Virus record (IMG/VR): IMGVR_UViG_3300046660_000192 | Span: 1 to 35,062 of that record | DNA length: 35,062 bases | Direction: 5' to 3' (one strand) | From: a virus | In this document: in pieces, positions 1 through 23,704 of the stretch | Layout: each line of letters starts with the position of its first letter | How positions within the stretch are numbered: the stretch's first letter is position 1 | Notes under the pieces: model-generated | The model's input: the letters and a program-made list of their open reading frames with translations, nothing else | What the model was told of the DNA's origin: nothing | Databases searched by the model: none | Translations under genes and position numbers: made by a program

Positions 1-1094
1 ATGCCAAGCATAGCCGCTGCCAGAGCGATCCTCCCCGGTGTGTCGAGTGAGAACAGCGTGTTCTTGAGATAACCGCGACCGCTCGTGCCGTATTGAACGA
101 AGCGCTCCTCAAGCCCGAGCTTATAGGCGATCTGACGAGTGAGGTTGCCGCCCGCCCATGCGTCAAAAAATCCCTGTGCCAAGCTGTCACCGGCAATTAG
201 AAGTTTTGCCACTTCAGTGTTTTCAGCCCACGGCAAAACGCTTACGCCGGTATCGACGTTAATGCCGCCGAAGCGAACACCGAAGCCGAGAATGATTTCT
301 ATAAACCGGACTTTTTTGGTGGTGTGGAGCTTGCCGAACGCGGTAGTGAAGGTCGCGCCCGTGCCTGAACCGGTCGTACTTCCCTGCGTCGTGGTCGCTG
401 GAGCAACAGTGTACGAACCGGCAACGTGGATAGCTGCCCCCGTGATAACGCCTGCATTCACACTGGTGACGCGGATTTGCGCAGCCGTGGAGAACGACCC
501 GCCCGCTTGAGTGAGGATGTCACCTACCGCATGACCCGACCCGCCCGACAAGATTACAGGGTTAACCAGTGCATAGGTTTGAGTGTCGTTCCCGAAATCC
601 ACCAGAACGAAATGTTCTGTATCGTCGCCAAGGCCGGGATGCTCTTCAGAAAATAGCGCCTTGGAAACCGGCTTTCCGTCGACCAGGATTGTGAACTGTC
701 CTTGCCCGAGATACGACCGTACGCGGAAATCGAACCGCGTTCCATCCATAATCCAACGATACCGAACACCGCCGCGTGAGCCGCGTTTGTAATTGCCGCT
801 GTCCTCAAACGTTCCGCCGAGCCGCGTCATCCGAACGTCGTCTTTGCTATAGCCGGGAGTCGTGGAACTGTTGATTGAGCTGACTGCAGCCGCCGCACCG
901 ATCGAAATAGTCGGTGGTAACGCCATTACGTCAGGAATTGGCAATAGACCGTTATATTTCAGCTTCCATCGGTGGAACTTCGACAGGCCGACATATGTCG
1001 CGCGCTCAACACCGATGTCACCCGCCCCAAGATGTCCCTTCAAAGCCTGGCGGCCGACCGCGGCGGAATTCTTCAGCCACTGTGCGACGGTCAT
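1..1094 (-). CDS. SGNH/GDSL-esterase tail-type protein (3' end cut by the window edge)
   Basis: An uninterrupted minus-strand frame starts at ATG 1094 and runs off the left edge after 364 codons. The first ~180 residues form an N-terminal module with beta-rich carbohydrate-binding character (inference). A Gly/Thr/Ser-rich linker follows at about 230-250 (TTTQGSTTGSGTGATFTT), a pattern common in tail-fibre proteins. Then LLIAGDS appears near residue 302, which is block I of SGNH hydrolases with the nucleophilic Ser, followed by a plausible Gly block (YGTSGRG). Blocks III and V (Asn, Asp/His) would lie beyond the edge. Known SGNH enzymes of this kind remove O-acetyl groups from glycans or sialic acids. 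It overlaps the 91-aa gene by ATGA and lies downstream of the lysis genes. A receptor de-O-acetylase is my inference. Confidence 0.8.
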   Translation of the reverse strand, partial: MTVAQWLKNSAAVGRQALKGHLGAGDIGVERATYVGLSKFHRWKLKYNGLLPIPDVMALPPTISIGAAAAVSSINSSTTPGYSKDDVRMTRLGGTFEDSGNYKRGSRGGVRYRWIMDGTRFDFRVRSYLGQGQFTILVDGKPVSKALFSEEHPGLGDDTEHFVLVDFGNDTQTYALVNPVILSGGSGHAVGDILTQAGGSFSTAAQIRVTSVNAGVITGAAIHVAGSYTVAPATTTQGSTTGSGTGATFTTAFGKLHTTKKVRFIEIILGFGVRFGGINVDTGVSVLPWAENTEVAKLLIAGDSLAQGFFDAWAGGNLTRQIAYKLGLEERFVQYGTSGRGYLKNTLFSLDTPGRIALAAAMLG

Positions 1095-2734: not shown

Positions 2735-2914
2735 ATGGCTTACTTCGTTGTCTATTCGGTCATGGGGAACACACAGAGAATAGAGTTTCCGGCGCTCACT
2801 GAAGCCTTGGAAGACTTTGCAGAAAAGAAACGCCTTGACGATCTGCTTATGTTTGATGACCGGTACGTCATCGGTATCGAGGATGACGAAGGGCGGCGCG
2901 TGACTGTTCAATGA
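2735..2914 (+). CDS. 59-aa protein coupled to the CMP-sugar synthetase
   Basis: ATG 2735 lies nine bases after AGGAG (2721-2725), and the stop overlaps the next start as ATGA (2911-2914). The product is 59 aa, acidic towards the C-terminus (DDLLMFDDRYVIGIEDDEG), with an N-terminal hydrophobic strand (MAYFVVYSVM). It has no clear signal peptide and I recognise no family. Good ribosome-site spacing, tight coupling to pseF and the shared opposite orientation to all neighbours indicate a real gene. It could be a small regulator or partner of the synthetase; this is not shown. Confidence 0.7.
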   Translation: MAYFVVYSVMGNTQRIEFPALTEALEDFAEKKRLDDLLMFDDRYVIGIEDDEGRRVTVQ

Positions 2915-3612
2915 AAAAGATAGTTGCGATCATCCCGGCGCGCGGCGGTAGTAAGCGAATCCCGAAAAAGAACATCAAGGCTTTTTGCGGCAAACCTATG
3001 ATCGGATGGCCGATCGATGCGCTTAGAGCCTCAGACCTTGTCAGTGACGTCATCGTGTCGACAGATAGCGAAGAAATTAAAGAGGTTGCTGAGGCATACG
3101 GTGCACGCGTTCCGTTCGTGCGTCCCGCGGCACTTGCCGATGATTTCACAGGGACTGCCGATGTGACGAAACATGCCGCTCAGTGGTATTGTGACAATGT
3201 GGGTAAACCAGACCTTTTTCTGACAGTTTATCCGACTGCAGTCTTTCTTTCTGCCGACGATCTCGGGAAAGCCGTCGACCGGATGACCGAAACGAATGCA
3301 GAGATCGTCTTCAGTGCCGCGGAATTTCCGTTCCCCATTCAGCGTGCGGTTTTTCTGGACGGCGACGACCGAGCGCTGATGTTTCAGCCGGAACACTACT
3401 ACACCCGTTCTCAGGATCTCCCCAAGGCATACCAGGACGCTGGTCAGTTCTATCTAGCTCGTGCCGAAACAGCACTTCTCGCGAAGCCGACATTCGGACC
3501 ACACACAACCATGTTGGTTCTGCCGCGCCATCGTGTCGTTGACATAGACACGATGGAAGATTTCGAGATAGCTGAAAGACTGTTCAGGTGTAGTAGATCA
3601 CAGTTCCGATAA
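2911..3612 (+). CDS. pseF: Pseudaminic-acid (nonulosonate) cytidylyltransferase, PseF-like moron
   Basis: CMP-nonulosonate synthetases activate a nine-carbon sugar with CTP, releasing pyrophosphate. The 233-aa protein has the full fold: the nucleotide loop IIPARGGSKRIPKKNI (7-22), GKPMIGW, VSTDSEEI (49-56), the PseF-typical block YTRSQDLPKAYQDAGQFY (164-181) and the late acidic metal site VDIDTMEDFEIAE (210-222). The TRSQDLP..Y.DAGQFY block favours PseF over NeuA; the usual TAPF is TAVF here. The genes needed to make pseudaminate are absent, so it must act on a host pool. It lies on the plus strand between minus-strand tail and lysis genes, coupled to the 59-aa ORF. Its last 29 bases overlap the 3' end of the propeller gene, so its tail (RCSRSQFR) is encoded antisense to that gene. 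Confidence 0.85.
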   Translation: MKKIVAIIPARGGSKRIPKKNIKAFCGKPMIGWPIDALRASDLVSDVIVSTDSEEIKEVAEAYGARVPFVRPAALADDFTGTADVTKHAAQWYCDNVGKPDLFLTVYPTAVFLSADDLGKAVDRMTETNAEIVFSAAEFPFPIQRAVFLDGDDRALMFQPEHYYTRSQDLPKAYQDAGQFYLARAETALLAKPTFGPHTTMLVLPRHRVVDIDTMEDFEIAERLFRCSRSQFR

Positions 3613-5413
3613 GGCGAACAGTTCCGGCTGTCGGCACGTCTGCTACAACAACGTCACCTGGAGTTTGACCGGAACCGCTTGCTCGAAAAACAACTTGGTT
3701 CGCGTTCGGGCCGACACGTGCGGTAATCTGTGTGAAACTGGCTTTGGTAATACCCCGCCACTCTAACCCGCCACTGAGAGTCTGACCGTCTGCACCGCTG
3801 ACATACGGCAAACCGGTAACGCGTAGAGCACCGCTTGCCGTCGTATGCGTGAAAGCGGACGTGACGATTTCGAAATGTGCAAAAACAAGACGGCCAATTT
3901 TGGTTACTTTTCCGACCTGTGTAGCGTATGTAACCGCCAAGTCCCCAGGTGTCGCAAACGACAAAACCGGAGTCCAGGTGTTATTTTCCAGAACGGCGGC
4001 AACGTCGACTTTCTTCGTTTCCACCCGCGCCGCATGGTAATACGCAGTTTCACGAGCGTATGCCAAGATCGCTTGATCGCCAAACGGGCTGATCCACAGT
4101 GACGGATAACCCGCCAAAGAACGCTCGGTACCGGGCGCTGTGTAACCAGCGAGAATTGTCGCACTGTCAACCACAACGTGTTCGGGTTCCCAATTTAGCG
4201 GGGACACAAGCAGTTTTTCAGCCTCACCGACTCTCATGGATATTGAGTTGATATTCGGCGCGACCGCTGTTGCAGTCTGGCGCGACATGTACGTTAGCGC
4301 AACATAGGTTTTTCCGTCTCGATAGAACGTCGCGAGGTCATGACTCTTGTAACCACCTGACGACGGAAGGTTCGTGTCACCCTGCGTCGTCCATGTGCCG
4401 TTCGCATCTTCTGTTTTGAACTGGACCATTGACCCGGCGACATTGTCGACACGCAACATTGCGATCCAACGTCGCTCGTCAATGATTGCGACGGTTATTT
4501 CACTATAAGTCGTTGCGCCGTCTGTAATGATGAGTTTTGAGACCCAATTCAGACCGCCGTTGTCAGAGTGCATGATGTAAGATTTAGTGTCATCGTACAC
4601 GCCGACAACAAGACGTCCGCCCGGTGTCATATGGACTTTAGAGAAAAACGCACACGTCGAAGGAACGTCACCGGTAATAGTGATTTGTTCTGCCGGTGTA
4701 CTCCAATCGATACCGTCGATCGACGTTTTACGAAGTGCACGACGCGTGTCTGTCGGAATTGTTATTTCCGTGCAGAGCGCAATAAAGGTGCGGTCCTTTC
4801 GGACACCGAGCGCACCCCAATAATAATTCTTCAGATCGGTGACACCGTCAAAAATCTTAATCGAGGACGACCAGGAGTACGCGCCGTTTGTTGAATATTT
4901 GTATTCAATGTTTTGCGGCACCATGAACAAGCCGACACGCACGTTTCCGACAGTGTTCCCGCTCACCTGAACTTGCGTGACGGTTGAGAAAACTTTCGTT
5001 GTCACGACAGCCGTCGTGTATCCTCCCGCGGGTCCTGCAATTGTCTCACTGTCCGCAACACCGTTCACCAGACCGTAGACGGTAAAGTTGAGCGCCGCTT
5101 CGTTTGCGTCCGAAAGAATTTCAACCTTCGTTGCCGCCAACGGCGTTGCGACACCACCCGACGCATACACCCCGTTAATTACAAGATTTTGCGCCCCACC
5201 TGCAGCCGGTTTTTGCGAAAGACACACGCCGGTATGATGTGAACTGTCGTGCTGCGGACCTGATTTAAACAGCATCCCCATTACGTTTTTTTCAAAAGCA
5301 ATAACCGGAAAATGCGAATAATCCGCACTGTCAACCACACTCGACAGATACGGGACTTGCGTCGTTTTTGCGATCGCTTCAATATCGATAACGTTCGATC
5401 TTACTTGTGTCAC
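3584..5413 (-). CDS. Sialidase-like (Asp-box beta-propeller) tail protein
   Basis: The 609-aa protein contains four Asp-box/BNR motifs: STNGAYSW (174-181), SIDGIDW (231-237), SDNGGLNW (283-290) and the weaker TEDANGTW (334-341). These mark a sialidase-type six-bladed propeller. Residues ~75-162 (LVINGVYASGG ... TETIAGP-like SETIAGPAGG) form a beta-sandwich module known from several virion proteins. The C-terminal ~150 residues (VTYATQVGKVTKIGRLVFAHFEI) resemble fibre C-terminal domains that follow a virion enzyme. It probably binds or cleaves a sialic-acid-like surface glycan; the catalytic Arg triad and Tyr/Glu pair cannot be assigned by eye, so it may only bind. It sits directly downstream of the tailspike and tail-to-tail with pseF. 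Confidence 0.75.
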   Translation of the reverse strand: MTQVRSNVIDIEAIAKTTQVPYLSSVVDSADYSHFPVIAFEKNVMGMLFKSGPQHDSSHHTGVCLSQKPAAGGAQNLVINGVYASGGVATPLAATKVEILSDANEAALNFTVYGLVNGVADSETIAGPAGGYTTAVVTTKVFSTVTQVQVSGNTVGNVRVGLFMVPQNIEYKYSTNGAYSWSSSIKIFDGVTDLKNYYWGALGVRKDRTFIALCTEITIPTDTRRALRKTSIDGIDWSTPAEQITITGDVPSTCAFFSKVHMTPGGRLVVGVYDDTKSYIMHSDNGGLNWVSKLIITDGATTYSEITVAIIDERRWIAMLRVDNVAGSMVQFKTEDANGTWTTQGDTNLPSSGGYKSHDLATFYRDGKTYVALTYMSRQTATAVAPNINSISMRVGEAEKLLVSPLNWEPEHVVVDSATILAGYTAPGTERSLAGYPSLWISPFGDQAILAYARETAYYHAARVETKKVDVAAVLENNTWTPVLSFATPGDLAVTYATQVGKVTKIGRLVFAHFEIVTSAFTHTTASGALRVTGLPYVSGADGQTLSGGLEWRGITKASFTQITARVGPNANQVVFRASGSGQTPGDVVVADVPTAGTVRLIGTVIYYT

Positions 5414-16419: not shown

Positions 16420-16976
16420 CAGAAGGCCCACGTGTGAGGCGCAAGCAACGCCTTGACCGAGAACGGTATCTTTGCCGGGACAGCACCGAACGCCACCGGT
16501 TCGCGGTTACGGTACCAGTGCGCCACAAGGATCTTTATCGCCAGCAGCAACGAATCGGGGACCGTGTCATAACCGTGCGTCGTGACGATCGATATCGGGT
16601 CGTCACGGTCTGTCTCGATCGCCGGAAACGCGAAATCGTTCTTCAGTCGGATATAATCCGGGTAAATCTGATACGACGCCGGGTCTAGCGTCTGTTCGTC
16701 ACCGTCCTCGTCATAATACTTAATCACGGCGTCGGTCGTGTCGGTGAAAATCGTCTCCATTTTACGGCACCACGAGGTGCGCGTTACCTGCCACTCTTGT
16801 TCGACAATGCAGCGGTTCAGGATGCCTTGATATCCGTCCAGGTGCGACACTGCCGCTTTGATGAGTGCGGCAATATAAACGTCATCATCCGTGAACCACG
16901 TCACCCGCAAATGTTCCTTCACCTCTTGCAAGGTCACCGGATCAGTCGCGGGTGCTGTGATAAGCTTCGGCTTCAT
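16419..16976 (-). CDS. Head-tail connector (HK97 gp6/phiE125 gp8-like)
   Basis: The 185-aa protein has the classic start: LITAPATDPVTLQEVKEHLR, then DDDVYIAALIKAAVSHLDGY and a Cys/Trp-rich middle (EQEWQVTRTSWC). A late helix reads LLLAIKILVAHWYRNREPV. The string P..PVTL.E.K.HLRV......D..I..LI.AA...L is diagnostic of the head-tail connector family. It forms a ring under the portal. It overlaps the upstream gene by ATGA and the adaptor by TGATG. Confidence 0.88.
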   Translation of the reverse strand: MKPKLITAPATDPVTLQEVKEHLRVTWFTDDDVYIAALIKAAVSHLDGYQGILNRCIVEQEWQVTRTSWCRKMETIFTDTTDAVIKYYDEDGDEQTLDPASYQIYPDYIRLKNDFAFPAIETDRDDPISIVTTHGYDTVPDSLLLAIKILVAHWYRNREPVAFGAVPAKIPFSVKALLAPHTWAF

Positions 16977-17305
16977 TTCTTCGGCAGACCAGGAAGGCCG
17001 ATCGACGGCACCACCGGGGCGGCAACAGCCTTGTCAGCCGCTTCCTTCTCGGCAACAGCCTTGTCAGCCGCTTCCTTCTCGGCAACAGCCTTGTCAGCCG
17101 CTTCGGACGATTTCGCGCCCTTTGCCTTCAGCTTGTCCGCGACGGACTGCTTTTCTTCCTCGACTTCCGTCGCTTCACCGGCTTCGATAAAGACTTCCCC
17201 GAGCGCGTCGGAAACAGTATAGATAACGCCCTTGGCATACTGACGAACGGTCGCGCCGTCGTCGGCACCCTTCACGCCATCTTTCGCAATCTTAACTTTG
17301 ATCAT
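16973..17305 (-). CDS. Head-region protein with a decapeptide tandem repeat
   Basis: This 110-aa protein begins MIKVKIAKDGVKGADDGATV, then YAKGVIYTVSDALGEVFIEAG, a small beta domain of the type found in short head proteins of phages. The C-terminal half is lysine-, alanine- and glutamate-rich with an AADKAVAEKE decapeptide repeated (EAADKAVAEK EAADKAVAEK EAADKAV), followed by a short hydrophobic tail (PSIGLPGLPKK). The repeat reflects a perfect 30-bp DNA tandem repeat. It lies between the connector and a structural gene. I assume a head accessory or decoration role with a flexible arm. Confidence 0.65.
   Translation of the reverse strand: MIKVKIAKDGVKGADDGATVRQYAKGVIYTVSDALGEVFIEAGEATEVEEEKQSVADKLKAKGAKSSEAADKAVAEKEAADKAVAEKEAADKAVAAPVVPSIGLPGLPKK
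17021..17104 (+). repeat. 30-bp tandem repeat, about 2.8 copies
   Basis: The unit GGCAACAGCCTTGTCAGCCG plus CTTCCTTCTC repeats at 17021, 17051 and 17081. The first two copies are identical over 30 bases and the third diverges after CTTC. It encodes the AADKAVAEKE decapeptide of the 110-aa protein. A multiple-of-three unit keeps the frame, so copy number could vary freely. Confidence 0.95.
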
Positions 17306-19563: not shown

Positions 19564-20405
19564 CCCTTCATCGTCGCCATGAGGTTTTCAAATTCACGGC
19601 TGATATCTGGTGCTGGTTCTTCCCGACCGTTCATTTTCGCGAACGCGTCGGCGCGATCCTTGCGGGAAAGACCAGCTTTCGCCATCGCAGCCTCCACGCG
19701 GCGGCGCGCTACGATCGCTTCGCGCTTATCCTGTGGAAGACTTGCCGAGGCCGTCGCGTCATCCTCGAATTCGCCGTCAGCAAATTTCAGTTCGACCGCT
19801 TCGGCAGCGGTCATCCACGTACCGTCGCTGCGACGATTCGGACCAGCAAGCATGGCGATGATTTTCGCCTCGTCCAGTCCGGTACGGGCCGCATAGACCG
19901 CCGCAAGAGATTTGTCGATTTTGTTAAAGACGGTCGCGCCTTCCTCCAGGTCGTCCGCATTCCCGATGATGACGCCCCAGGCTTTGTGCACCATCATCAT
20001 GGATCCGGTCGCCATGTGGATTTCGTCACCGGCCATTGCGATCACACTGGCAGCACTTGCCGCAATACCACGCACGCGTACCGTTACCTTTGCCGGGTGG
20101 TCGCGCAGCTGGTCATAGATCGCCAGTCCGTCGAACACGCTCCCGCCAGGTGAATTGATGTTCACTGTGACGTCGCGCGGGCCGATGTTCCGCAGGATTC
20201 CGGCCATCTTGACGTCAGAGAAACCATCACCGAACCAGTCTTCACCGATCCGCTCATAAATATTGATGGTTGTATCGTCGGACGTCGCCGCGGCGTAAAC
20301 CCGGTCCGTCCATTCTTCGAGCGCCGCACTCGGGGCGTCATAGTCGTACCATGCGGGTTGACGCGCCATAATGCGACCCTTGGGGAGATTCTTCAGGAGG
20401 CTCAT
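19560..20405 (-). CDS. ClpP-like prohead protease (S49/S14 family)
   Basis: The 281-aa protein shows VTVNINSPGGSVFDGLAIYD (79-98), the serine loop GIAASAASVIAMAGDE with the likely nucleophile Ser117, and MMMVHKAWG with His140. These define a ClpP-type phage head protease. The C-terminal ~80 residues are charged and helical and may bind the scaffold or capsid. It should cleave the delta domain of the capsid precursor during maturation. It is coupled to the portal gene by ATGA (20402-20405) and precedes the capsid gene, as in HK97-like phages. Confidence 0.9.
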   Translation of the reverse strand: MSLLKNLPKGRIMARQPAWYDYDAPSAALEEWTDRVYAAATSDDTTINIYERIGEDWFGDGFSDVKMAGILRNIGPRDVTVNINSPGGSVFDGLAIYDQLRDHPAKVTVRVRGIAASAASVIAMAGDEIHMATGSMMMVHKAWGVIIGNADDLEEGATVFNKIDKSLAAVYAARTGLDEAKIIAMLAGPNRRSDGTWMTAAEAVELKFADGEFEDDATASASLPQDKREAIVARRRVEAAMAKAGLSRKDRADAFAKMNGREEPAPDISREFENLMATMKG

Positions 20406-21658
20406 TTGTCGTCATCCTCTAATGGCGGACCGCCGTTATGTCCGATATCGGGGTTTTGGTTCGGGGGAGCGGCGTATTCATCGCCTTCGGGGTCGGTACG
20501 CGGGTTCATGTCGAGCAGCGCGCGGACGTCGTTCGCACTGTAGACGCCCCACTGGCGACCAGCTGTGAATGCCGCCCATTGTGCCTTGCTGTCACCCTTC
20601 AGCAGTCCTTGCGTGAAGAACCGAACGTCCAAGGTGTCCCAGTCGCGTTCATTGATCGTGTCGCGCTTCAGCGCCTCTTGCCACATCACAAGCCAATCGT
20701 TCAGCGTGTACGTGACAAAGCCGATGTTCTGTTGCTCGATACCCGAGCCCCACGAGGTCGTTTTCTCGGTCGCCCCGATCATATGGGGCGGAACACCGAA
20801 GAACATGGCGATGTCGTATCGCTGGAAATCACGGGACTGGATAAACTGGAGGTCGTTAGCGGACATCGACGTTTTGACGAGATCCGCGCCTTCCTCAAGA
20901 ATGGCGGTCTTTCCGGTGTTATCGACGCCGGACTTGCGACCCTCCCAAGATTCTTTGAGGCGGTTGTACGCCTCTTTCGACATGGTTTCGGGGTGCTTGA
21001 TAACGGTGTCGATAAACGAACCGTTCTTCATCAGCGTAGCGGCGGCAACTTCGCCGTCGATCGCGATACCGAGCGATTCCCGCATATGCGACAGAACAGA
21101 CAGACCGGAATAGCCGTTCAGCGACAAGCCGCGCAAATGCAGCACGTCCGCCGACCGATAGACCTTCAAGGACCCGTCAGCCGCCGTAACTGTGTATTTC
21201 ATCTGGAGGCTGTTTTCTTGCTCGATCAGCACCCGGTCAGGATGAATCGGGATGAGTGCGACGACTTCCCCGAGCGCCTTGACTTTCACAGCGACCGCGT
21301 TCCCGCGCAACATGACGTGTGCCTGCATGAGCTGTTTGAATTCTTTCGGGGTTTGCCAGGCGTTCGGACGGACCGTCAGCACGCGACGCAATGGATGCCC
21401 CACGGCAGGCTTACGGACGTCCTCGCTTTCGCGGCGAATGATGTCCATCGGAAGCCACGACACGACGCCTGAAATGATGGTCGTGCAACGGTACGCCGCT
21501 GCGACCTTCATCGCGCTATTCTCGGTAATCGAGCGTCCGCTAATAGATGTGTTCGAACCGTCACGCAGGAAGTCGCGGATTTCCGTATCGGTCGCGCTGG
21601 TGACGTTGATCGTCTGCCCTATGGCCGCGCGAAAAGCCGATGTCAGAATATTCGCCAA
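20402..21658 (-). CDS. Portal protein, HK97 family
   Basis: The 418-aa protein has AMKVAAAYRCTTIISGVVSW, then PLRRVLTVRPNAWQTPKEFK, MLRGNAVAVKVKALGEVVAL, IPIHPDRV and VLHLRGLSLNGYSGLSVLSH, the standard portal series. It also has DIAMFFGVPPHMIGATEKTT and LEQQNIGFVTYTLNDW-like text. The start is TTG 21658 (MANILTSAFR) with GGGGA nearby; the overlapping ATG is out of frame. It forms the dodecameric packaging and ejection channel. The extreme C-terminus reads DIGHNGGPPLEDDDK, a motif also found in the large terminase of this phage. Confidence 0.92.
   Translation of the reverse strand: MANILTSAFRAAIGQTINVTSATDTEIRDFLRDGSNTSISGRSITENSAMKVAAAYRCTTIISGVVSWLPMDIIRRESEDVRKPAVGHPLRRVLTVRPNAWQTPKEFKQLMQAHVMLRGNAVAVKVKALGEVVALIPIHPDRVLIEQENSLQMKYTVTAADGSLKVYRSADVLHLRGLSLNGYSGLSVLSHMRESLGIAIDGEVAAATLMKNGSFIDTVIKHPETMSKEAYNRLKESWEGRKSGVDNTGKTAILEEGADLVKTSMSANDLQFIQSRDFQRYDIAMFFGVPPHMIGATEKTTSWGSGIEQQNIGFVTYTLNDWLVMWQEALKRDTINERDWDTLDVRFFTQGLLKGDSKAQWAAFTAGRQWGVYSANDVRALLDMNPRTDPEGDEYAAPPNQNPDIGHNGGPPLEDDDK
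20411..20449 (-). repeat. IGHNGGPPL-tag coding repeat, copy in the portal gene
   Basis: CGGACCGCCGTTATGTCCGA (20426-20445) differs at one base from CGGACCGCCGTTATGACCGA (23341-23360) in the large terminase gene. Both are in the same coding frame and give IGHNGGPxL followed by acidic residues. The tag is at the C-terminus of portal and near residue 57 of the terminase. Confidence 0.9.
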
Positions 21659-21729
21659 ACCGGCATTCCCCGAGTGAAACGTTACACGTGCGTTAACGTG
21701 ATATCAAACACAGTGGCACGTTACAACCC
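21659..21729. promoter_or_regulatory. Operator-like gap between large terminase and portal
   Basis: This 71-bp noncoding gap is unusual in an otherwise tightly packed operon. It has CGTTACA at 21680-21686 and 21719-21725, plus a central GCGTTAACGTG and inverted CACGT words. No clear sigma-70 promoter is evident on the minus strand. It may be an operator or a secondary promoter for portal onwards. Confidence 0.4.
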
Positions 21730-23526
21730 TTACACCATGAGTATCCCACGGCTTTCATACACCGACTTGTTGTCCTCGATTAACATCCAGCGGGCCATTG
21801 CCATGATCTTTGCAACCGGTCCGTCAATTTTGTTCTCGACACGGTCCTTGTTGGGATAATCGTTGTCCTTCCGGTCGGGCTTGCTGACCACGTTCGACAG
21901 CATCCAGGTGTAAACCGGGTCACCGTTGTGGGCGATTGCGCGCGACCGTATCAGCGCCTCGATTTCTTTCATCGGTTCGGAGAAGTTCAGCACGAGCGGC
22001 GCAACTTCTACGCACGGGATACCTTCAGCGATCAATTCCGAGACCATCATTCGCGCCTGGTGCTGGTCAAAAGCCAGTTCTTCAAGCTGGAATTGATCGC
22101 GATCGTCTAGAATTTCGTCGCGGATCTGGACATAATCGATCATGTCGCCGGGGGTGTCAGTTATCCAATTATCACCCACCCACCCCTGATAATGCTCATT
22201 TTCACCAAGGGAAACCGTCTTTTCAGGCAGGTAATACCGGCCGAAACTTGCGTACTTGTACCCCTCATCCTGCAAAATCTTCGCAATGTCACAATTGCAC
22301 TGATCAAGCCGAAACAGGTACATTTTCGCCGCAATGTCCACCTTTGACGCAAGGTCAAGCCCGATCTTCACCGGCTGATTGTGGAACATGTCGAGCGTCA
22401 GCGTCGGTTTCGCGGATTCCCTCCAACGCTGGATATTGAAATACGCGTTGCGCGCTTGCACCCACAGGTTCAGGTGCTTGGTCTTGAACGCGCCGACCTT
22501 ACGGGCGTTCTGTATCGCGTCCTTCTGCATCGACTTGAGAAATTCGCCGCGGATCGATACGTCATAATTCGGGTTCGCCTGGAGCAGTGCAAGCTCAGTG
22601 GTCCAATCGACGTCGGGATCTGCGGAATAGATGATACCGAAAAGTTCCTCGTTAGGTGTGACCCCTTCAAGCATCTTCTCGACTTCCTGTTGCATCGCGT
22701 AACACGGACCGGCGATATTGTCGCCAGCTGTGGAAATGATCAACAGCAGCGGTTGATCACGCGCACCCATGCCGGTCTCAAACGTCGATACCATCGCGTC
22801 TGTGTCATGCTCGTGATACTCGTCCACGATCGCGCATGACGGGCTTGCGCCGTCGCCAGGGTTGCCGACAACTGTTTCAAACTTCGCACCGTCAGCCAGC
22901 TTATAGAGGTTCGACCCGGCACCCTTTCCGGTTTCGACGCCATAATACGCCGTCAGTGCCGGGGAGTTCTTCGCCATGAGGCGCGCGGGCTTGAAAACCT
23001 CCCACGCCTGCTTTTCGTTCGTCGCTCCGCTGTAAACTTCAGCGCCGAATTCATTATCCGCGCATAGCATGTACAGACCGACAGCCGCGGCCCATGCGGA
23101 CTTGCCGTTCTTGCGGCTTTCCAGCACAAACGCCTTACGAAACCGTCGAAGGCCGTCGCTGGCACGTTTCCAACCGAAAATGCACATGGTTTTGAAACAC
23201 TGCCACGGTTCCATGACCAGTTTCTGCCGTTTTGCAGCCCATTTTCCCTTCGTGTGGGGCAACAATTCTATGAAATTGCACGCTTTTTCAGCGGCTTTTG
23301 GGTCAAAAAAGTACGGAAAAACGTCCTCGTCATCCAAAGACGGACCGCCGTTATGACCGATCGACGCCCGGTCCAGGTCGTCCAAATGGCGCTTACAGGC
23401 TAGTTTTACCCACTTTCCGGCCACAACCGCCCCGGATAGGACATCACGAGCGTATTGCGTACCCTTCTCGACATGCGTCCAGGCGGGCGCGGCTTTCGGA
23501 ATGACACCGGGCGGGTAACCGAGCAT
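21730..23526 (-). CDS. terL: Terminase large subunit
   Basis: I choose ATG 23526 (MLGYPPGVIPKAAPAW, 598 aa), which follows the 58-aa gene stop by one base, over a TTG start at 23577 that would lie inside that gene. Residues ~40-52 (KWVKLACKRHLDDL) are the usual P27-type start. Walker A is SRKNGKS (137-143) after FRKAFVLE; Walker B is CAIVDEYHEH. KIGLDLASKVD and ELAFDQHQARM carry nuclease-domain acidic residues, and the end has RWMLIEDNKSVYESRGI. It is the ATP-driven packaging motor and genome-cutting nuclease. Unusually, IGHNGGPSLDDED is inserted near residue 57, between the N-terminal region and the ATPase. Confidence 0.92.
   Translation of the reverse strand: MLGYPPGVIPKAAPAWTHVEKGTQYARDVLSGAVVAGKWVKLACKRHLDDLDRASIGHNGGPSLDDEDVFPYFFDPKAAEKACNFIELLPHTKGKWAAKRQKLVMEPWQCFKTMCIFGWKRASDGLRRFRKAFVLESRKNGKSAWAAAVGLYMLCADNEFGAEVYSGATNEKQAWEVFKPARLMAKNSPALTAYYGVETGKGAGSNLYKLADGAKFETVVGNPGDGASPSCAIVDEYHEHDTDAMVSTFETGMGARDQPLLLIISTAGDNIAGPCYAMQQEVEKMLEGVTPNEELFGIIYSADPDVDWTTELALLQANPNYDVSIRGEFLKSMQKDAIQNARKVGAFKTKHLNLWVQARNAYFNIQRWRESAKPTLTLDMFHNQPVKIGLDLASKVDIAAKMYLFRLDQCNCDIAKILQDEGYKYASFGRYYLPEKTVSLGENEHYQGWVGDNWITDTPGDMIDYVQIRDEILDDRDQFQLEELAFDQHQARMMVSELIAEGIPCVEVAPLVLNFSEPMKEIEALIRSRAIAHNGDPVYTWMLSNVVSKPDRKDNDYPNKDRVENKIDGPVAKIMAMARWMLIEDNKSVYESRGILMV
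23341..23361 (-). repeat. IGHNGGPSL-tag coding repeat, copy in the large terminase gene
   Basis: This is the second copy of the 21-bp block, with one substitution against the portal copy at 20426-20446. It encodes IGHNGGP, with SLDDED downstream. The two copies are 2.9 kb apart. Confidence 0.9.
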
Positions 23527-23527
23527 G

Positions 23528-23704
23528 TCAGCGACCCCGACGAAGGTTAAGCACCCGCAAGACGCCGTATTTGCCAACTTTCCACGACAAACGAATTTTC
23601 AACGGGATGTGTTTTTCAAACATCACCCTGCCACCGACGTACCAAGCTACATCGGGGCGACGTGCGATAATCAAAGGCTGGCGTACCGACCGCGTCCGCA
23701 TCAT
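23528..23704 (-). CDS. 58-aa basic protein between small and large terminase
   Basis: The start ATG 23704 overlaps the small terminase stop as ATGA and the stop lies one base before the large terminase ATG. AGGA precedes the start. The 58-aa product is very basic and aromatic: MMRTRSVRQPLIIARRPD, then VAWYVGGRVMFEKHIPLKI and a C-terminal LNLRRGR. It fills a gap that would otherwise be non-coding in a tightly coupled operon. It may bind DNA or the terminase; no family is recognised. Coupling and codon frame are the evidence. Confidence 0.7.
   Translation of the reverse strand: MMRTRSVRQPLIIARRPDVAWYVGGRVMFEKHIPLKIRLSWKVGKYGVLRVLNLRRGR

Follow-up and report, generated by a model that had tools for sequence, protein, structure and literature searches.

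The sliding-clamp-binding motif and the C-terminal tail of SSB are short docking motifs of bacteria, and encapsulins receive their cargo through short terminal tags that are carried by unrelated proteins and read by shells related to HK97. The peptide IGHNGGP resembles the sliding-clamp-binding motif and the SSB tail in being short, in lying in tails and linkers, in being common to unrelated proteins and in its convergent gain, but it differs from them in sequence and, as sampled, is confined to a single class of bacteria and the phages of that class. With the encapsulin cargo peptides it shares the form of a short terminal tag, unrelated carriers and HK97-related shells; unlike them it has another sequence, is also found internally, and occurs on terminases, a methylase and an apparently cellular family.

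A third parallel is the imitation of short linear motifs of the host by viruses, reportedly best known in eukaryotic viruses (PMC10694346). As there, a short peptide in flexible regions is common to virus and host proteins, whereas the tag occurs in phages and bacteria and its host reader is putative.

The tag was noticed in an IMG/VR virus record of 35,062 bases, the whole of which is called the window. A head and packaging block on its minus strand encodes the small terminase, the large terminase subunit (TerL), the portal protein, a ClpP-type protease and an HK97-type capsid protein. The preliminary description placed near-identical copies at the C-terminus of the portal and inside TerL, and both were found there, with 20 of 21 bases equal and one mismatch. 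The portal gene (20402..21658, minus strand; PF04860 Phage_portal, E 3.8e-90) carries the tag codons at 20426..20446 (minus strand), corresponding to residues 405-411 of 418, followed by PLEDDDK and the stop codon; the tail reads PDIGHNGGPPLEDDDK. In TerL (21730..23577, minus strand; PF03354 ATPase and PF20441 nuclease) the codons lie at 23341..23361 (minus strand) and encode residues 73-79 of 615, numbered from an assumed TTG start. There the tag precedes SLDDED, in the context RASIGHNGGPSLDDEDV, upstream of the ATPase domain, which begins at residue 124. Both copies lie outside the regions alignable to solved structures, namely the HK97-type portal 8cez (residues 41-393 of 418) and the terminase 6z6d (residues 150-594 of 615). 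The window contains exactly two matches to the degenerate IGHNGGP pattern, and three sites when up to two mismatches are allowed, against 1.06 expected. For a fixed peptide, the codon usage of this phage gives a probability of 0.020 that two copies differ at no more than one wobble position, and equally similar tag DNA is seen in 0.054 of 6677 carrier pairs drawn from different families; the near-identity of the two copies adds little.

With all synonymous codons allowed, IGHNGGP was found in at least 118 stretches (at least 119 sites) of IMG/VR, compared with 13 stretches for the scramble IGPGNGH and 10 for IGNHGGP in the whole of that collection. It is thus roughly ten-fold or more commoner than the scrambles and far above chance. 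The preliminary description had named chance-level frequency as an outcome that would tell against the motif, and this is not what the scrambled controls gave. Related forms are also frequent: VGHNGGP occurs 112 times in the whole of IMG/VR, IGHNNPP at least 120 times, and IGHNRGP (with CGN codons) 22 times, the last including repeated short frames of incidental appearance. The IGHNGGP, IGHNNPP and genomic-carrier sets used below are samples, consisting of the matches listed in the scan. Open frames of at least 150 residues contain 87 of the 119 listed viral IGHNGGP matches, and 108 of the 112 VGHNGGP matches lie in open frames of at least 100 residues. The motif VGHNGGP is directly followed by (L/I/M)(D/E) in 70 of 112 cases, the scrambles in 0 of 13 and 0 of 10. 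A literature search on the peptide found no mention in print; the motif is real and apparently undescribed.

After masking of the motif, the 119 listed viral proteins and the two of the window fell into 31 clusters without similarity outside it. They include four Pfam portal families, several TerL families, HNH proteins, a C5 methylase, NifU-like proteins, a helicase, an exonuclease and capsid proteins. Recurrence in unrelated proteins above chance, a hallmark of short linear motifs, is therefore observed. Among the 114 non-redundant carriers of at least 30 residues, out of the 119 listed, on which Pfam was run, 28 are portals (PF04860 22, PF05136 3, PF16510 2, PF06381 1, taken as non-overlapping), and terminases match PF04466 (13), PF03237 (9) and PF03354 (8) in sets that may overlap. 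HNH (8), NifU (4), C5 methylase (4) and major capsid (2) families follow, with single matches to Acb1, a helicase, an integrase and a PAPS reductase. Portal or TerL proteins make up at least 10 of the 31 clusters; in the window these two genes occupy 8.9% of the length. Ten of 31 has a probability of 1.6e-6 to 6e-4 at an expected share of 5-10% and of 0.012 at 15%, an over-representation that is only suggestive because the clusters are not fully independent.

The tag favours the ends of proteins. In complete viral open reading frames of at least 150 residues, IGHNGGP lies within 50 residues of an end in 46 of 66, against a null mean of 16 and a maximum of 28 in 2000 trials, and IGHNNPP in 53 of 64 (null mean 26). 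The IGHNNPP carriers differ: of the 120 listed, 39 belong to one nameless family of about 240 residues and 34 to a NifU-like cluster. The two forms seem interchangeable, since one and the same N-terminal slot of a TerL family is filled by IGHNGGP in two phages (L029 and L090) and by IGHNNPP in a third (L371, 1306-2790). In an integrase (L297:10352-11740, minus strand) IGHNNPP is found at residue 331, within the region of the catalytic domain (237-436), unlike the usual terminal place. In a marine phage contig (L003), VGHNNPP ends a protein resembling the NifU-like carriers (188-607, plus strand) and IGHNGGPK ends a 43-residue protein (5067-5195, plus strand). A protein with an IGHN form at L030 was considered as GapR, which was not borne out, no family being matched.

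Among phages the tag is readily gained and lost. Of eight portal relatives in IMG/VR, three have it (L387, which is identical, L388 and L389) and five (L390-L394) lack it, even L390-L392 with 84-88% identity to the portal of the window. Six related TerLs were read in these loci, and one of them is tagged, from the near-identical phage L387; L389 retains a VGPSLDE stretch, which looks like a remnant. The portal copy of the window phage is common to two sister phages, and the TerL copy is sporadic. A scan of 43 whole virus records, 37 picked for the tag and six containing portal relatives, gave a site in 39, two copies in one record, and none for the reversed control. A second copy was present in 1 of the 37 records picked for the tag. 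The pairing in the window, though rare, has a parallel, because L015 has copies in both TerL and a protein of a portal cluster. An element of portal-terminase interaction would be kept in both partners across related phages, which was not the case in these loci. The argument of the preliminary description that two copies in one motor speak for function finds no support in the form given; the pair by itself is no evidence that the motor needs the tag. Lability weakens the motor-specific argument, and the large number of portal and TerL carriers gives back part of its force.

The same lability is seen in the HNH family, which was searched from tag-carrying seeds with a query ending before the motif. 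In the best 80 of 141 relatives the slot is either cleanly present or cleanly absent between AKRAM and CEE: it is present in 59 (31 exact IGHNGGP, 40 GHNxGP, 19 altered), absent in 20 and ambiguous in one. With 19 of 59 slots altered and 20 of 80 proteins lacking the slot, the tag is dispensable in this family. Of eight named alphaproteobacterial phages, three of them scanned in part, two have GHNx(G/P)P in a named gene, namely the TerL of Paracoccus phage vB_PmaS-R3 (MGHNGGPPLEDD) and p091 of Rhizobium phage 16-3 (KGHNQPP). Caulobacter phage TMCBR2 has a match in a short frame within a tail fibre gene, which appears incidental. An HNH protein of phi2LM21 has the near variant IGHNGEP, and RHph_N2 has IGNNGGP; tblastn of a 24-residue tail against the named phages was near the noise limit. 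No copy of GHNx(G/P)P was present in SfV or in a Paraburkholderia phage, which served as controls with other hosts.

Contigs of cellular genomes contain the tag in at least 119 stretches, and the 80 titles examined are mostly alphaproteobacterial with scattered others. In class samples that included the seeds, it was found in 13 of 289 alphaproteobacterial genomes and in 1 of 185 and 1 of 148 genomes of two other classes, both of these being the seeds; with the seeds removed, the counts are 12 of 288 and 0 of 331 (Fisher p 9e-5). Among the classes sampled the tag is bounded to the Alphaproteobacteria. The statement in the preliminary description that the peptide is frequent in unrelated proteins of Hyphomicrobiales is confirmed, but for the class as a whole and not for that order alone.

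A single family of small proteins accounts for 58 of the 119 listed genomic carriers. In its members the tag is followed by W...W..A(H/R)...P.E...R...A..LG..Y..Y. A profile search located the family in 9 of 115 class genomes and 15 of 41 family genomes, and all 24 members found keep GHNx(G/P)P with the fifth residue free, a count to be read in the light of a profile that included the motif columns and so favours members keeping the motif. The family has no name in Pfam, NCBIfam or PHROGs, and a fold search gave no match at E <=0.001, only weak Arc/CopG-like and HAD-like resemblance. Its neighbours, judged from open-frame listings, include nothing constant. This alphaproteobacterial family with a GHNx(G/P)P tail, with members in L142, L163, L177 and other loci, is apparently undescribed. 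A longer Rhodobacterales form has a weakly HAD-like second part.

In the most plausible model, to which we give a probability of about one half, IGHNGGP is a convergent docking motif read by a putative alphaproteobacterial partner. It would be one form of a consensus, hydrophobic-G-H-N-x-(G/P)-P-x-(L/I/M)-(D/E), borne in tails and linkers, and a binding partner that Alphaproteobacteria possess would recognize it in trans. The likeliest native client would be the host family with its invariant N-terminal tail, predicted to be disordered, and phage proteins would have gained the same peptide convergently to reach the host partner, perhaps so that low-copy proteins, portal and terminase among them, are folded, placed or recruited. 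The docking model is supported by recurrence above chance, protein-level conservation, the class boundary, the preference for termini and frequent gain and loss. Counted against it are the single copy that carriers usually have in the 43 records, a convincing copy in only two of eight named phages, the putative status of Alphaproteobacteria as hosts of the marine myovirus-like carriers, the dispensability in the HNH family and the deviating codons 5-7. A phmmer search of the tail against the PDB gave no match.

A more far-reaching form of the docking model, which we consider possible but doubtful, is a class-wide address tag: an alphaproteobacterial hub would bind the GHNx(G/P)P tails of the cell's own small proteins, and phages would repeatedly graft the tag onto the packaging motor and onto enzymes acting on DNA, so as to exploit the hub or obstruct it. 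If true, this would parallel in bacteria the mimicry of short motifs by viruses. A docking role would point to an unrecognized system of peptide recognition common to a whole class of bacteria, with the short peptide as a ready bait for the reader. It would also mean that phages evolve docking motifs of host type in the packaging machinery, which to our knowledge has rarely been documented in bacteria.

The position of the tag also bears on the idea that it is a cleavage or turnover signal, through which a host or phage protease or adaptor trims or degrades the carrier. Sites at termini or between domains fit this idea, as in the TerL of L015, where the tag (residue 288) separates the ATPase from the nuclease, which starts at residue 296; sites inside large multi-domain proteins fit as well. 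However, cleavage at copies very near an end would cost few residues, and the host family retains its tail, which makes such a signal unlikely. Deamidation or cleavage at Asn-Gly was dropped from consideration, as Asn is followed by different residues (N, R, M, L, F, Q).

It is rather improbable that the peptide acts in cis by capping or pinning a flexible tail on its own protein or oligomer. Its conservation in the host family beside a conserved three-helix region, which it adjoins, would be explained in this way. Yet the tail is predicted at low confidence, in a disorder-like manner: the 181-residue form has a predicted mean pLDDT of 91.1 against 49 in the tag block, and the 66-residue form 80.6 against 59. 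Furthermore, no family is common to the carriers. A conserved, apparently disordered N-terminal tail fits docking in trans according to these models, and occurrence in disordered tails and linkers is in keeping with short linear motifs, the low model confidence that points to disorder being a result for the host family only.

The preliminary description had left the choice between a mobile micro-exon-like sequence and a selected docking motif. A mobile DNA block copied between genes would account for the single mismatch in 21 bases of the window and for the clean presence or absence of the HNH slot. However, 121 viral copies comprise 83 distinct 20-mers, codons 1-4 largely match the usage of the carrier gene, and AT-rich phages encode the same peptide in AT-rich codons. 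Flanking DNA is no more similar between different families (0.278 and 0.282) than sites 70 codons away (0.274), so copies in different genes are not alike in DNA beyond the demand of the peptide. Since the codons vary and the flanks are unrelated, selection acts on the peptide and no copied DNA block is needed. The motif is conserved as protein; some codon bias remains at positions 5-7, which deviate from the gene averages. Of the two options, the docking motif gains from this, from recurrence, from the location in tails and linkers, from the class boundary and from the over-representation of portal and TerL, while the mobile element is disfavoured as very improbable and, like the two explanations that follow, was rejected on codon, flank and scramble evidence.

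A functionless accident of composition in proline- and acid-rich linkers would agree with the labile tails and with sister portals that have PP(L/Q)(K/E)DD without IGHNGG, but the rarity of scrambles of the same composition, the class boundary and the protein-level conservation disfavour it so strongly that hardly any weight remains to it. A site acting as DNA, for instance in recombination or packaging, whose translation as IGHNGGP would be incidental, has next to no credibility: codon 5 is GGC in 0.86 of the copies, against 0.69 for Gly before Gly elsewhere in the same genes and 0.56 for all Gly, an excess of which Gly-Gly codon-pair preference explains much, though only part, but third positions vary most, in the HNH slot well above first and second positions, and the IGHNNPP form has other DNA.

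Two further genes of the window deserve mention. A small protein at 16973-17305 (minus strand), without a family match, contains near-perfect EAADKAVAEK repeats. A cytidylyltransferase gene at 2911-3612 (plus strand; PF02348, E 6.3e-27) runs in the opposite direction to the structural genes and is perhaps a moron acting on surface sugars.
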